The notes beneath the pieces were generated by a model. The model was not told where the DNA came from. It was given only the letters and a program-made list of their open reading frames with translations, and did no database searches. From Acidobacteriota bacterium (GTDB lineage Bacteria > Acidobacteriota > Aminicenantia > UBA2199): DNA of 7,804 nt. The stretch lies in contig JAKAGC010000168.1 in assembly GCA_021817755.1 (NCBI GenBank), positions 1-7,804 of the forward strand, in the 5' to 3' direction. A program made the translations under genes and the position numbers. Shown here piece by piece: positions 1 through 5,375 of the stretch. Every line of letters begins with the position of its first letter. Position 1 is the first letter of the stretch.

Positions 1-237
1 GATATGTATAATGAAATGTTCAAGACCCTTAGCGGGACTTGTGAGGCCTGCCATATTCTTGAAATTTGCAGGCAGTGTGCGTTTTACCTAAGGGGGAAAG
101 AGGCTGAGACTGAGTGTAATCAATGTATAGGGGAGAAAGGATTTTCAAATTACCTCTCTTCGATAATGGAAAAATTTGAAGAAGATGGTTCTACGATTCC
201 CAGAATATTAGGCTATAAGGGGAAGGGTAAGGAATGA
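1..237 (+). CDS. C-terminal end of a probable radical SAM/SPASM peptide maturase (5' end outside the window)
   Basis: The frame is open at the left edge, so this is the tail of a longer gene; the ATG at position 4 should not be taken as its start. The visible 78 codons hold six cysteines arranged C-x2-C-x5-C-x2-C, then 12 residues, then C-x2-C (residues 13, 16, 22, 25, 38 and 41 counted from the ATG at 4). This spacing resembles the C-terminal SPASM domain that binds auxiliary 4Fe-4S clusters in radical SAM enzymes that modify peptides. A helical, charged tail follows. The stop overlaps the next gene's start as ATGA, which implies translational coupling. The next gene resembles the pseudo-rSAM partner of RiPP maturases, so a maturase is the natural reading. 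The catalytic N-terminal domain is not in the window, so the assignment rests on the cysteine pattern and the neighbour. Confidence 0.6.
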   Translation, partial: DMYNEMFKTLSGTCEACHILEICRQCAFYLRGKEAETECNQCIGEKGFSNYLSSIMEKFEEDGSTIPRILGYKGKGKE

Positions 238-1067
238 AAACCTATTGGTTTTATTTTGAGCCCACTGTATTCGTTTCGCTGAAATCGAACGGGTTGCTTC
301 TCTATGATACAATCACAGGAAAAATGCTGGAATACAGTGAACCCCGGATTTTGCGTTTTGTGAAAAAATTGGTTTCCCCTGCCAATAGGGGAGTAGTGGC
401 GATTCATGATGCCCTTCTGAATGATCATTTCTTGGGGCCTTTTATTCGGGAAATACGGGAATATTTTATGGGTGATCTTATCGATACCTCTTATTCAAAA
501 CAAAAACCGGTACGATTTATGGTTGAACCGGTTGTGGAATATGACTCCAAAGGGTTAAGATATGCGCCTTATCCGTCGATAGGTGAGGAATTTACCGGAA
601 CACTTCATAGTATATATGTATATATAAATAATACCTGTTCACAGAATTGTACAATATGTGGATATGCATACAGGCAGTTTCCCTGCTGTACCATGAGCAG
701 AAAAAAAAGGGAAAAGAGGCAAGAGCTGGATATTTCGCTTATGGATAAGATGCTGGATGAGCTCGGTTCCGATTCCATGGTTCGATGGCATATCCAGGGA
801 GGGAATCCCTTCGAGTATTCCATGTTTGGGGAATTAATAGAACGCATGAAGCGACTTAAAACCCCCATCGTTTTTTATTGCCATTACTTGAACCTGTGGG
901 GAAATGAAAAAAAAATAGACCGGTTAAATGAGGTAAAGGTTACATTGAAATTAATCGTGACATTTCCATTGGATAAGAAAAATTGGGTGAGGGGATTACG
1001 ATGCTTCGAGAGAGGGGAACCGAGTTTGAAATTCTTTTTCCGATTTCTGGCGAAAGCGATTTTGTAA
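234..1067 (+). CDS. Pseudo-rSAM family protein of a RiPP maturation system, N-terminal part (gene frameshifted)
   Basis: The N-terminus (MKTYWFYFEP, then a stretch of the type LLLYDTITGK) resembles the TIGR04150-type 'pseudo-rSAM' proteins that accompany radical SAM peptide maturases in the so-called GG-Bacteroidales RiPP systems; this is recognition from memory, not a search. Residues about 125-255 look like a radical SAM-type domain: a strand (IYVYINNTC), a C-x3-C-x2-C motif at C135, C139 and C142, extra cysteines C151-C152, and a later strand with QGGNPFEYS. Family resemblance stops near FPLDKKNW (about residues 244-251). The remaining residues, ending in FFFRFLAKAIL, look like out-of-frame translation. 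The rest of the protein continues in another frame (983-1492). A repaired gene, 234-1492 plus one base, would encode about 419 residues, which fits the family. The start overlaps the upstream stop. It probably assists the upstream maturase or binds the precursor peptide; its biochemical role is not settled. Confidence 0.72.
   Translation: MKTYWFYFEPTVFVSLKSNGLLLYDTITGKMLEYSEPRILRFVKKLVSPANRGVVAIHDALLNDHFLGPFIREIREYFMGDLIDTSYSKQKPVRFMVEPVVEYDSKGLRYAPYPSIGEEFTGTLHSIYVYINNTCSQNCTICGYAYRQFPCCTMSRKKREKRQELDISLMDKMLDELGSDSMVRWHIQGGNPFEYSMFGELIERMKRLKTPIVFYCHYLNLWGNEKKIDRLNEVKVTLKLIVTFPLDKKNWVRGLRCFERGEPSLKFFFRFLAKAIL
975..1004 (+). other. Frameshift site within the pseudo-rSAM gene
   Basis: The coding frame changes from codons starting at positions divisible by three to the frame one base back, equal to losing one base. 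The switch must lie after the in-frame TAA of the second frame (974-976) and before the MLRERG helix (from about 1001). The likeliest spot is the A-run at 978-982: one more A would read as LDKK, Lys, LGEGITMLRERG without a break. The bases there are AAG AAA AAT, not a canonical -1 slippery heptamer, since the base before the A-run is G. A sequencing or assembly error in the homopolymer or a real inactivating mutation is more likely than programmed frameshifting. Confidence 0.65.
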
Positions 1068-1492
1068 GTGCCGGTGAAATCGTTTCTGATTTGGGAATTA
1101 AAAAATATGAATATCATCCATTGTATACAGGGGAAAATCTTGAATTTTTCAGAGATGCGGTCTATATCGGAAGAGAGGATATCCATGGAATGAGGCCTTC
1201 TTTTAAAGAGATATACCGGAATAGGTTGATGAATATGCATTACTTCGGAAGGTTACTGGTATTTAGCGATGGGGTCATTCGTGCGCGTATCAATGGAAAA
1301 GTTTTGGGAAATATAAGCAATATAAGCTTATATGAAGGAGTAATAAAAGAACTGAAAAATGGGGAAAGCTGGTTAAGAATTCGAAAAAAGAGGATGCCCT
1401 GCGGTGATTGTGTTTTTGAAGCATTATGTCCCCCCCTGTCAAACTATAATGATATCTTTGGCGTGAACAATTGCTGCACTATTTTTCCCTGA
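983..1492 (+). CDS. Pseudo-rSAM family protein, C-terminal SPASM-like part (out of frame with its N-terminal part)
   Basis: This frame is open from 977, after a TAA at 974-976, and continues the protein begun at 234. The TTG at 983 is only the first possible start codon and has no convincing ribosome binding site, so independent translation is doubtful. It starts with a helix-strand unit (MLRERGTEFEILFPI). Then come a region of the type YHPLYTGENLEFF and a strand pair (FGRLLVFSDGVIRA) typical of the twitch/SPASM region. The end has cysteines as C-x2-C-x5-C followed by PPLSNYNDIFGVNNCC, which closely matches the terminal signature I associate with pseudo-rSAM proteins. The continuous family match across both frames is the reason for calling one broken gene rather than two genes. 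No terminator was seen after the stop. Confidence 0.68.
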   Translation: MGEGITMLRERGTEFEILFPISGESDFVSAGEIVSDLGIKKYEYHPLYTGENLEFFRDAVYIGREDIHGMRPSFKEIYRNRLMNMHYFGRLLVFSDGVIRARINGKVLGNISNISLYEGVIKELKNGESWLRIRKKRMPCGDCVFEALCPPLSNYNDIFGVNNCCTIFP

Positions 1493-3844: not shown

Positions 3845-4762
3845 ATGAAAATAAAAATCAATCCATTAATGTTAACGGCATGCATAGGCATGTTGTTTTT
3901 TCTTATGGGAACATTCCCGGTTGAAGGTGCGAAAAATACCAAACCGCGTCTTTATATCAAGGGACTGGCAGGAATGCAAAACGCCAAAACGGGTGATTTT
4001 GATGATTTTTATACACAGAATTCACTCTTTTATAGTGAGTTCGAGAAAGCAAATACAGGGTATACCATTTCTTTTACACGCCCCAGGAAGGATTTTCGGG
4101 GATTAGGTGGGGAAATCGGCCTGGAAACAGACCGTTTTGCAGTAGGTATATCGGCTGACTTTATTGAAAAAGAATACAATCTGTTATTGGATTATAATGA
4201 TGCGACCACAGGCTATTCGGAGAAGAGAACCTGGAATTATTCATTAAAAGCAGTTCCAATCTTTGTTATGTTTCATTACAAATTGATAAATTCAGGTATT
4301 CTGACAATATCCTTATCAGTAGGAGAAGGTGTGTACCTTATCCGATACAGGGATATCCGGAATCAAACATTTGAAAATGCGGATTTAACATTCAGTAATG
4401 GTATTGTAACCAGTAAGAAATACCAGTTGGGATTTCACGGTGGAACATCTATCGAATTGAAAGTAATGCCTAATTTTTCATTATGTATCGATGCGGCGTA
4501 CCGCTTTGTGAAACTTGAAAATATGAATGCCACAAGCTATTTTGAAGATGACCTCGGAATTATTACCAAGAAAAACCAATTGTATTATTCCGTTAATCCG
4601 GATACAGGAGAAGCGCGTTTCAGTTCATCAAAATACGGGTTACCCTGGGATTCTCGATTAGCAAAGATGAGACTGGATGGTCTGACTCTGAGTGCAGGAA
4701 TTAAAATTATATTCGGTTCTGTAAAAAAATCCAATCCAACGAAGGCAGATTCGGGTGAATGA
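3845..4762 (+). CDS. Predicted outer membrane beta-barrel protein, function unknown
   Basis: The protein has 305 residues. The N-terminus is a classic Sec signal: lysines at 2 and 4, a hydrophobic core about 8-24, then PVEGA with likely cleavage after G28. The mature part alternates short amphipathic strands rich in Gly, Tyr and Phe (such as LYIKGLAGM, GGEIGLETDRFAVGISADFI, YQLGFHGGTSIELKV, FSLCIDAAYRFVKL) with polar loops. It ends with LTLSAGIKIIFG, the pattern of a final barrel strand, followed by a short charged tail. About eight to ten strands are plausible, as in OmpA/OmpW-like barrels; no particular family is recognised and no catalytic motif is seen. A moderate site (AAAGGA, 3828-3833) lies 11 nt before the ATG. 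It sits between folD and the SDR gene, overlapping the latter by 8 nt. No functional tie to folate metabolism is evident. Confidence 0.72.
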   Translation: MKIKINPLMLTACIGMLFFLMGTFPVEGAKNTKPRLYIKGLAGMQNAKTGDFDDFYTQNSLFYSEFEKANTGYTISFTRPRKDFRGLGGEIGLETDRFAVGISADFIEKEYNLLLDYNDATTGYSEKRTWNYSLKAVPIFVMFHYKLINSGILTISLSVGEGVYLIRYRDIRNQTFENADLTFSNGIVTSKKYQLGFHGGTSIELKVMPNFSLCIDAAYRFVKLENMNATSYFEDDLGIITKKNQLYYSVNPDTGEARFSSSKYGLPWDSRLAKMRLDGLTLSAGIKIIFGSVKKSNPTKADSGE

Positions 4763-5375
4763 TATTGAACAGTCCCGGCCCCACGTTTTTATAACCGGAG
4801 CATCGGGACTACTGGGAACTGCATTAATAAATGAATTGATTGGGGCGGGTTTTAGCATACTGGCTCATTATCATACACATAAACCCTTTGAAAATGAACA
4901 TTGTCATTGGGTAAAGGGTGATTTTTCAAGTGTTGGGAAAATTCGCGATTTTATTCGAATAAATAAAGAAGCGCTTTCATCTTGTAGTATTCTTATCAAT
5001 AATTATGGTCCCATAACCTCTACCCCTCTACCATCTTTAAAGGCCCGGGATATTCTCCATGACTACCATCACAATGTCATCCCGGTATTTGAATTCACCC
5101 GTTTTTTTATAAACAATGCCCCGCTCCTTGCAGTAGTCAATATATTATTCGATGGAGCAGGAAAATTCCAACCCTACAAGAAAATAGTCTCTTATGCAAT
5201 GGCAAAGAATGCGATTATAAGCCTTTCCAATTCCTTTGCATCGCAATATCCCGGCATTCGGTTTCATCTTGTCAAACCTTCGACTATGAAGGGAGCCAGG
5301 GTTAAAGCCAAAGATGGAGTGGAAGTCTCGCCTCACACGATTGCCTCTTATATTAGAGAGATATTAACACAATAA
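4755..5375 (+). CDS. Short-chain dehydrogenase/reductase-like protein
   Basis: A Rossmann-fold protein of 206 residues, somewhat short for the classical SDR family (about 250). It shows the nucleotide-binding TGASGLLG (14-21), the acidic GDF after the third strand (D56), INNYG (81-85, equivalent to NNAG), N107 of the catalytic tetrad, and YAMAK with Y147 and K151. The catalytic serine expected about 13 residues before the tyrosine is absent: the region reads FDGAG (132-136). Activity may therefore be altered or lost. The GTG start at 4755 lies inside the end of the preceding gene, with AAGG at 4742-4745 nine nt upstream; the frame supports no better start before the TGASG motif. It overlaps the beta-barrel gene and is probably translationally coupled to it. 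The substrate is unknown; a pterin or folate substrate can be imagined from nearby folD but has no sequence support. Confidence 0.8.
   Translation: MNDIEQSRPHVFITGASGLLGTALINELIGAGFSILAHYHTHKPFENEHCHWVKGDFSSVGKIRDFIRINKEALSSCSILINNYGPITSTPLPSLKARDILHDYHHNVIPVFEFTRFFINNAPLLAVVNILFDGAGKFQPYKKIVSYAMAKNAIISLSNSFASQYPGIRFHLVKPSTMKGARVKAKDGVEVSPHTIASYIREILTQ

Follow-up and report, generated by a model that had tools for sequence, protein, structure and literature searches.

The 3' end of an Aminicenantes peptide-maturation operon and a 'pseudo' radical SAM partner that may be the TrnD-type half of a thioether synthase

The window analyzed here, a stretch of 7,804 bases, spans a complete contig (G000:C106) of a 4.74 Mb metagenome-assembled genome (MAG; 811 contigs, 79.6% complete), and the assembly therefore holds no sequence to the left of position 1. 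Judged by profile searches and Cys positions, positions 1-1492 are the 3' end of an Aminicenantes peptide-maturation operon encoding a radical S-adenosylmethionine (SAM)/SPASM maturase of family TIGR04148 and a partner of the 'pseudo-rSAM' family TIGR04150. An earlier interpretation made from the letters of the window (the sequence-only reading) had taken this region for the tail of a locus that matures ribosomally synthesized and post-translationally modified peptides (RiPPs). The features of the region are the following.

1..237, plus strand: TIGR04148 radical SAM/SPASM peptide maturase, C-terminal 78 amino acids (aa), with the 5' part off the contig (TIGR04148 match, Cys positions)
234..1067, plus strand: TIGR04150 partner, first frame, 277 aa, with the RiPP recognition element (RRE)-like N-terminal region and the initial portion of the barrel of radical SAM enzymes (TIGR04150, 152.5 bits)
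636..659, plus strand: CSQNCTIC, the radical SAM CX3CX2C motif, intact in the 'pseudo-rSAM' protein (sequence motif, alignment with relatives)
795..806, plus strand: QGGN, in the place of the GG(E) SAM-binding motif (sequence motif)
970..985, plus strand: frame-break zone, an A-rich run where identity to the homolog P0002 moves from one frame to the other
983..1492, plus strand: TIGR04150 partner, second frame, 169 aa, with the rest of the barrel and the C-terminal auxiliary-cluster domain, stop at 1490-1492 (TIGR04150, 167.7 bits)
1400..1474, plus strand: C-x2-C-x5-C-x15-C, predicted Twitch-type auxiliary [4Fe-4S] site (same spacing seen in 56 of the 57 partners that reach 350 aa)

The 5'-open open reading frame (ORF) at 1-237 matched positions 340-407 of the 411 in TIGR04148, with an E value of 2.2e-9 and 37 bits; a piece of only 78 aa cannot attain the cut-off, which is 300. 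Its six Cys codons (at 40, 49, 67, 76, 115, and 124) comprise C-x2-C-x5-C-x2-C-x12-C, which corresponds in correct spacing to the last five of the seven SPASM cysteines, and a sixth Cys. The ATG at 234 shares the sequence ATGA with the maturase TGA at 235-237, so that the TIGR04150 gene adjoins the TIGR04148 gene. The first partner frame begins at this ATG, ends at a TAA (1065-1067) after a last stretch that is out of frame, and matched TIGR04150 positions 1-258 (E 1.7e-44); the ORF at 983-1492 matched positions 245-406 (E 4.1e-49). Since these parts of the model are complementary, the two ORFs represent one gene in two frames, and because of the broken frame both pieces score below the curated cut-off of 250 bits. 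P0002, an intact homolog of 419 aa (the length of the window partner across its frames), scored 331 bits; its identity with the first piece is 73%, and with the second 80.5% across the full 169 residues; the similarity search match of the window partner reads through one TAA. The ATGA overlap, the six-Cys SPASM-like cluster, and a frame-broken partner to be checked against TIGR04150 had all been described in the sequence-only reading, and these results bear them out. They also agree with its remark that the precursor must lie to the left, as no precursor ORF was seen in the window and its left side is off the contig.

Both frames are conserved relative to P0002, and the break is therefore either recent or a sequence error. 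That the frameshift is real and the locus a decaying, non-functional remnant is a tentative possibility to which we give somewhat less than even weight. Apart from the broken partner itself, broken copies were found in relatives (the maturase of L113 lies in two frames, and L138 and L158 contain a TAA). The pair is moreover missing beside the downstream DUF1015 gene in three other genomes of the genus (G001-G003), where different genes lie upstream of DUF1015, and is therefore accessory. However, the second frame is stop-free and conserved like the first, all Cys motifs are intact, and the break falls in an A-run of a fragmented MAG, where a sequence error is possible.

A complete paralogous locus, with precursor, maturase, and partner in succession, is present on contig C461 of the same genome.

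C461 8456-8653: precursor of 65 aa, leader ...KLTEKQEQAVKGG, in the precursor position before TIGR04148
C461 8747-10294: TIGR04148 maturase, 481.8 bits, with radical SAM domain PF04055 at 8.6e-15 (profile searches)
C461 10301-11593: TIGR04150 partner, 372.9 bits (profile search)

Contig C442 ends with a second precursor followed by the opening 157 aa of a maturase (TIGR04148), and at the start of contig C354 lie the final 232 aa of a third partner (TIGR04150). The C442 peptide is not put forward as the substrate of the window pair because C442 and C354 neither overlap nor clearly pair with the window by similarity. In two respects this genome departs from what the sequence-only reading had proposed to look for, a TIGR04149 match and a peptidase-containing ABC exporter. 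TIGR04149 detects the precursors poorly here: the C461 precursor had no match and the C442 precursor an E value of 0.2, while the peptides of relatives ranged from 1.6e-10 to no match. TIGR04149-like peptides were found at 29 places of the genome at E <= 1 (L039-L058; arrays on C408, C263, and C290), and four of the five tested scored above the cut-off of the class I lanthipeptide leader model NF038153 (the fifth had 15.1 against 22). With LanB matches also present, on contigs C50 and C743, these scattered peptides were rejected as substrates of the pair. Most of the scattered Gly-Gly-leader peptides have no obvious maturase within the 1.5-kb flanks examined, and such lanthipeptide-type substrates may possibly share a few maturases. 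No exporter adjoins the C461 system, and the sole match to a C39 peptidase ATP-binding cassette (ABC) exporter at E <= 1e-5 stands alone on C129; among the stretches fetched from other genomes, a C39 exporter lies beside the pair in L100 and L116 of Aminicenantia and in L090 and L094 of Bacteroidota.

In the literal sense, a 'pseudo' radical SAM protein is catalytically dead and devoid of the CX3CX2C cluster site. The sequence-only reading had applied this name to the window partner, which carries both CSQNCTIC and a GG motif; it retains all three radical SAM cysteines, so that the name is likely misleading, and the protein is not classed here as a dead enzyme. The alignment comprised 57 partners with a length of 350 aa or more (20 from Aminicenantia and 37 from Bacteroidota, eight shorter ones having been dropped), eight metagenome proteins, and the first frame of the window. 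CX3CX2C was found in 18 of the 20 Aminicenantia partners versus 20 of the 37 from Bacteroidota (Fisher p 0.008); the window and all eight metagenome proteins have it as well. The GG motif accompanied it in 36 of 38 cases and was present in 3 of the 19 partners that had lost CX3CX2C, while the C-terminal four-Cys site was missing in a single protein, which runs off its contig. Among Aminicenantia proteins above the TIGR04150 cut-off, 18 of 19 carry CX3CX2C, and lack of the motif is therefore no criterion of the model. In the maturases, CX3CX2C was present in all 47 TIGR04148 relatives of 400-700 aa and the seven-Cys SPASM set, by a strict pattern, in 42 of them; nine shorter or fused proteins were skipped.

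On a partner tree built without the motif columns, motif presence or absence required seven changes and the phylum label four, counts that are approximate because only 26 of the 63 inner branches were starred. The window partner was placed among the Aminicenantia rows, on a long stem, as sister of P0002 (100/100). The N-terminal domain of the maturase was kept in all 18 Aminicenantia proteins with a readable motif position and was absent from 12 of Bacteroidota (L169, L171, L172, L175, L177, L179, L181, L184, L186, L187, L199, and L200), whose open frames have CX3CX2C as early as residue 28-67. The partners of these 12 are full-length, with CX3CX2C kept in 10, and could thus supply leader binding.

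At E <= 1e-25, TIGR04150 was detected in 10 of 142 host-class genomes, the class being labeled Aminicenantia here. A sample of the order that includes Parabacteroides distasonis gave 28 positive genomes among 393, and a sample of the host phylum gave 3 among 396, each of them a member of the host's own family. Up to five matches were listed for some genomes. A separate scan yielded 18 loci, nine from Aminicenantes/Acidobacteriota and nine from Bacteroidota. The suggestion of a lineage of the system outside its namesake group thus stands as regards the host, but with 10 genomes of the class it is no one-off. Searches of open-licence papers found no RiPP or lanthipeptide report for Aminicenantes. 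Near the pair, a 6-bladed beta-propeller (PF17170) was observed in four Aminicenantia loci (L100:4133-5257, L112:8332-9549, L114:2670-3926, and L116:5171-6175), with weaker ones under the gathering score at L106:4014-5015 (PF15869) and L108:3576-4763; a beta-propeller likewise lies near the pair in Tannerellaceae (L091:7211-8368).

The leader model returned 60 precursor candidates in 47 of 61 loci (18 Aminicenantia, 29 Bacteroidota). Seventeen of them have a gapless 22-residue core, in short form CxCxCx[YW]xxxGGSSxxxNxxAN and in full C-x-C-x-C-x-[YW]-x3-GG-[SA]-[STA]-x3-N-x2-x-N, exemplified by CGCGCYYEGKGGSSTSANSSAN in L100 and CGCGCCYSGSGGSSSSANASAN in L181; it occurs in three Aminicenantia and nine Bacteroidota systems, of which 10 have a partner that keeps CX3CX2C, and shuffled peptides gave no matches. 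Other Aminicenantia cores were of the types CACPxxNPRLAAYDYNVHH... and CxCGCLW..., and of a third type with CPCDSIFxxFG at its end. None of these fits the core of the C461 precursor, in which four Cys follow the leader (CVLY, CTC, C..., and one more near the end). CxC was present in 50 of the 60 candidates versus 11 in shuffles, a count that is only indicative because the leader seeds came from peptides picked partly for Cys. Motif state in the precursor table was taken from a position-limited pattern, which called L197 (protein L138) 'lost' although the alignment shows the motif; L197, which lacks a precursor, is not part of any table. In L108, L113, and L114, and also in L106 and L115, Cys-x-Cys is followed by a hydrophobic C-terminus (e.g., CPCDSIFFEFGIAWG), and the partners of these cores form one clade (A_L065, A_L073, A_L074, A_L077, and A_L078; 100/98).

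Comparison with known systems drew on PMC10352776, PMC4573289, PMC8939145, PMC12093266, and PMC3132745. The TIGR04148/TIGR04149/TIGR04150 cassettes of Bacteroides and relatives (PMC4573289, PMC10352776) share with the present loci both protein families, coupling of the ATGA type, a Gly-Gly-leader precursor upstream, and, beside some loci, a C39 exporter. They differ from the loci described here in phylum, in the proportion of partners with CX3CX2C, in the C461 leader being missed by TIGR04149, and in the 12 maturases without the N-terminal domain. In thuricin CD biosynthesis, according to PMC12093266, neither TrnC nor TrnD alone modifies the precursors effectively, the radical SAM cysteines of TrnC are essential and those of TrnD dispensable, the Cys set of TrnD is shorter than the seven-Cys SPASM of TrnC, and double mutants of the auxiliary cysteines are inactive. 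A 2011 survey aligned two paired Bacteroides proteins to TrnC and TrnD and noted CX3CX2C in both (PMC3132745); the E value of 6e-5 given there is for that one Bacteroides protein against TrnD. TrnC/TrnD and the present pair are alike in being adjacent radical SAM proteins with a seven-Cys SPASM and a shorter Cys set, in RRE-like domains, predicted here from the modeled fold of the partner, and in that the radical SAM site of the partner is less constrained than that of the maturase. They are unlike in maturase spacing (x12-G and x38 here versus x11-G and x36) and in having at least one unrelated-looking core per locus versus the TrnA/TrnB pair. The predicted partner fold also resembles SuiB, CteB, SkfB, ChlB, and TigE, at 11-15% identity in structural alignments, and the CX3CX2C of intact relatives aligns with CDLKCGFC of SuiB and CNLSCSFC of SkfB; unlike the pair, these are single maturases in the structures listed.

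An invariant maturase site, a decaying partner site, and an invariant partner auxiliary site are the pattern predicted by a TrnC/TrnD division of labor. We therefore give slightly better than even weight to a model in which TIGR04148 and TIGR04150 would form a two-protein complex that crosslinks, through thioethers, a peptide rich in Cys-x-Cys and bearing a Gly-Gly leader; the partner would be of the TrnD type. The maturase would perform the radical chemistry via a 5'-deoxyadenosyl radical, joining a core Cys to a backbone carbon by a thioether. In the partner, the N-terminal RRE-like domain would hold both leader and maturase, and a single auxiliary cluster would sit at the four cysteines of the C-terminus. 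The radical SAM site of the partner, though intact in the window, would be accessory, which is proposed as the reason why lineages lose the site and keep the protein. Cleavage after Gly-Gly and export of the product would fall to a C39-peptidase ABC exporter.

Several points weigh against this model. The window copy is incomplete and frame-broken. A Foldseek search with the predicted partner gave a single Protein Data Bank match at E <= 0.001 (BlsE) and, among the lower matches, many unrelated TIM barrels, these fold comparisons speaking only to the families listed. Since 38 of the 57 partners keep CX3CX2C, the site may be catalytic in most. Thioether formation is itself an assumption, based on the maturase family and on cores rich in Cys. 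Finally, the TrnD cysteines are spaced C-x2-C-x5-C with another about 20 residues on (about x19), versus x15 in the partner.

The chief alternative holds that TIGR04150 proteins with CX3CX2C are second, independent radical SAM catalysts that make a second modification of the core, for example in its GGSSxxxNxxAN part, a step that the other lineages have dropped. We consider it unlikely, although CX3CX2C and GG are kept together as described above and the partner keeps its motif in 12 of 14 systems with GGSS-type cores versus 17 of 30 with other cores (Fisher p 0.089; systems with a detected precursor), or 9 of 11 versus 5 of 16 within Bacteroidota (p 0.018), both tests ignoring relatedness. 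The near relatives L191 and L192, however, have a GGSS-type core adjoining a motif-less partner, and the analogous thuricin CD site is dispensable. A strict link between GGSS cores and CX3CX2C partners, suggested by an early scan, was abandoned on these counter-examples from a wider scan, and a weak tendency was retained.

That the contig is Bacteroidota contamination of the MAG, a thought prompted by models named from Bacteroidales, is highly improbable and was rejected on the placement of the window partner and on the downstream genes, which match the three congeneric genomes (69-71% DNA identity in the best pieces) and keep the order DUF1015, barrel-like ORF, and short-chain dehydrogenase/reductase (SDR) in all three. 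From these comparisons the host is an Aminicenantes lineage. It lies outside Bacteroidota, just as the sequence-only reading had supposed, partly from a canonical sigma-70 promoter. The promoter sequence is real, with TTGACA-17-TATAAT agreeing at 12 of 12 positions at 1546-1574 (shuffling expects 0.6 weaker-or-equal sites), but it heads the next unit, beginning with DUF1015, and not the maturase–partner pair. This unit (DUF1015, FolD, the barrel-like protein, SDR, a thioredoxin/tetratricopeptide repeat protein, and Tgt) was not counted in the RiPP locus. The SDR near FolD, at 4755-5375, has a weak dihydropteridine/dihydrofolate reductase match (NF012208, 4e-11, far under the cut-off) and is a candidate stand-in for folate reduction. 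The congeneric genomes G001, G002, and G003 measure 6.9-10.4 Mb versus mostly 2-3 Mb elsewhere in the family sample.

The TIGR04150 proteins carry the database label 'pseudo-rSAM', and according to a 2023 survey they have not been assigned a function. New here are the phylum, the census, the asymmetry between maturase and partner, and the shared core. It is possible, though we place it just short of even, that TIGR04150 is the TrnD-type half of a thioether synthase and not a dead family, that it has undergone at least seven natural changes of cluster state with the four-Cys site and RRE-like fold always kept, and that both Aminicenantes and Bacteroidales build, among others, the shared 22-residue-core scaffold. 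If the partners are of the TrnD kind, naturally occurring versions with and without the cluster could be compared to test TIGR04150 function directly in two phyla, and Aminicenantes would gain paired-enzyme RiPP pathways, with up to five TIGR04150 matches per genome.
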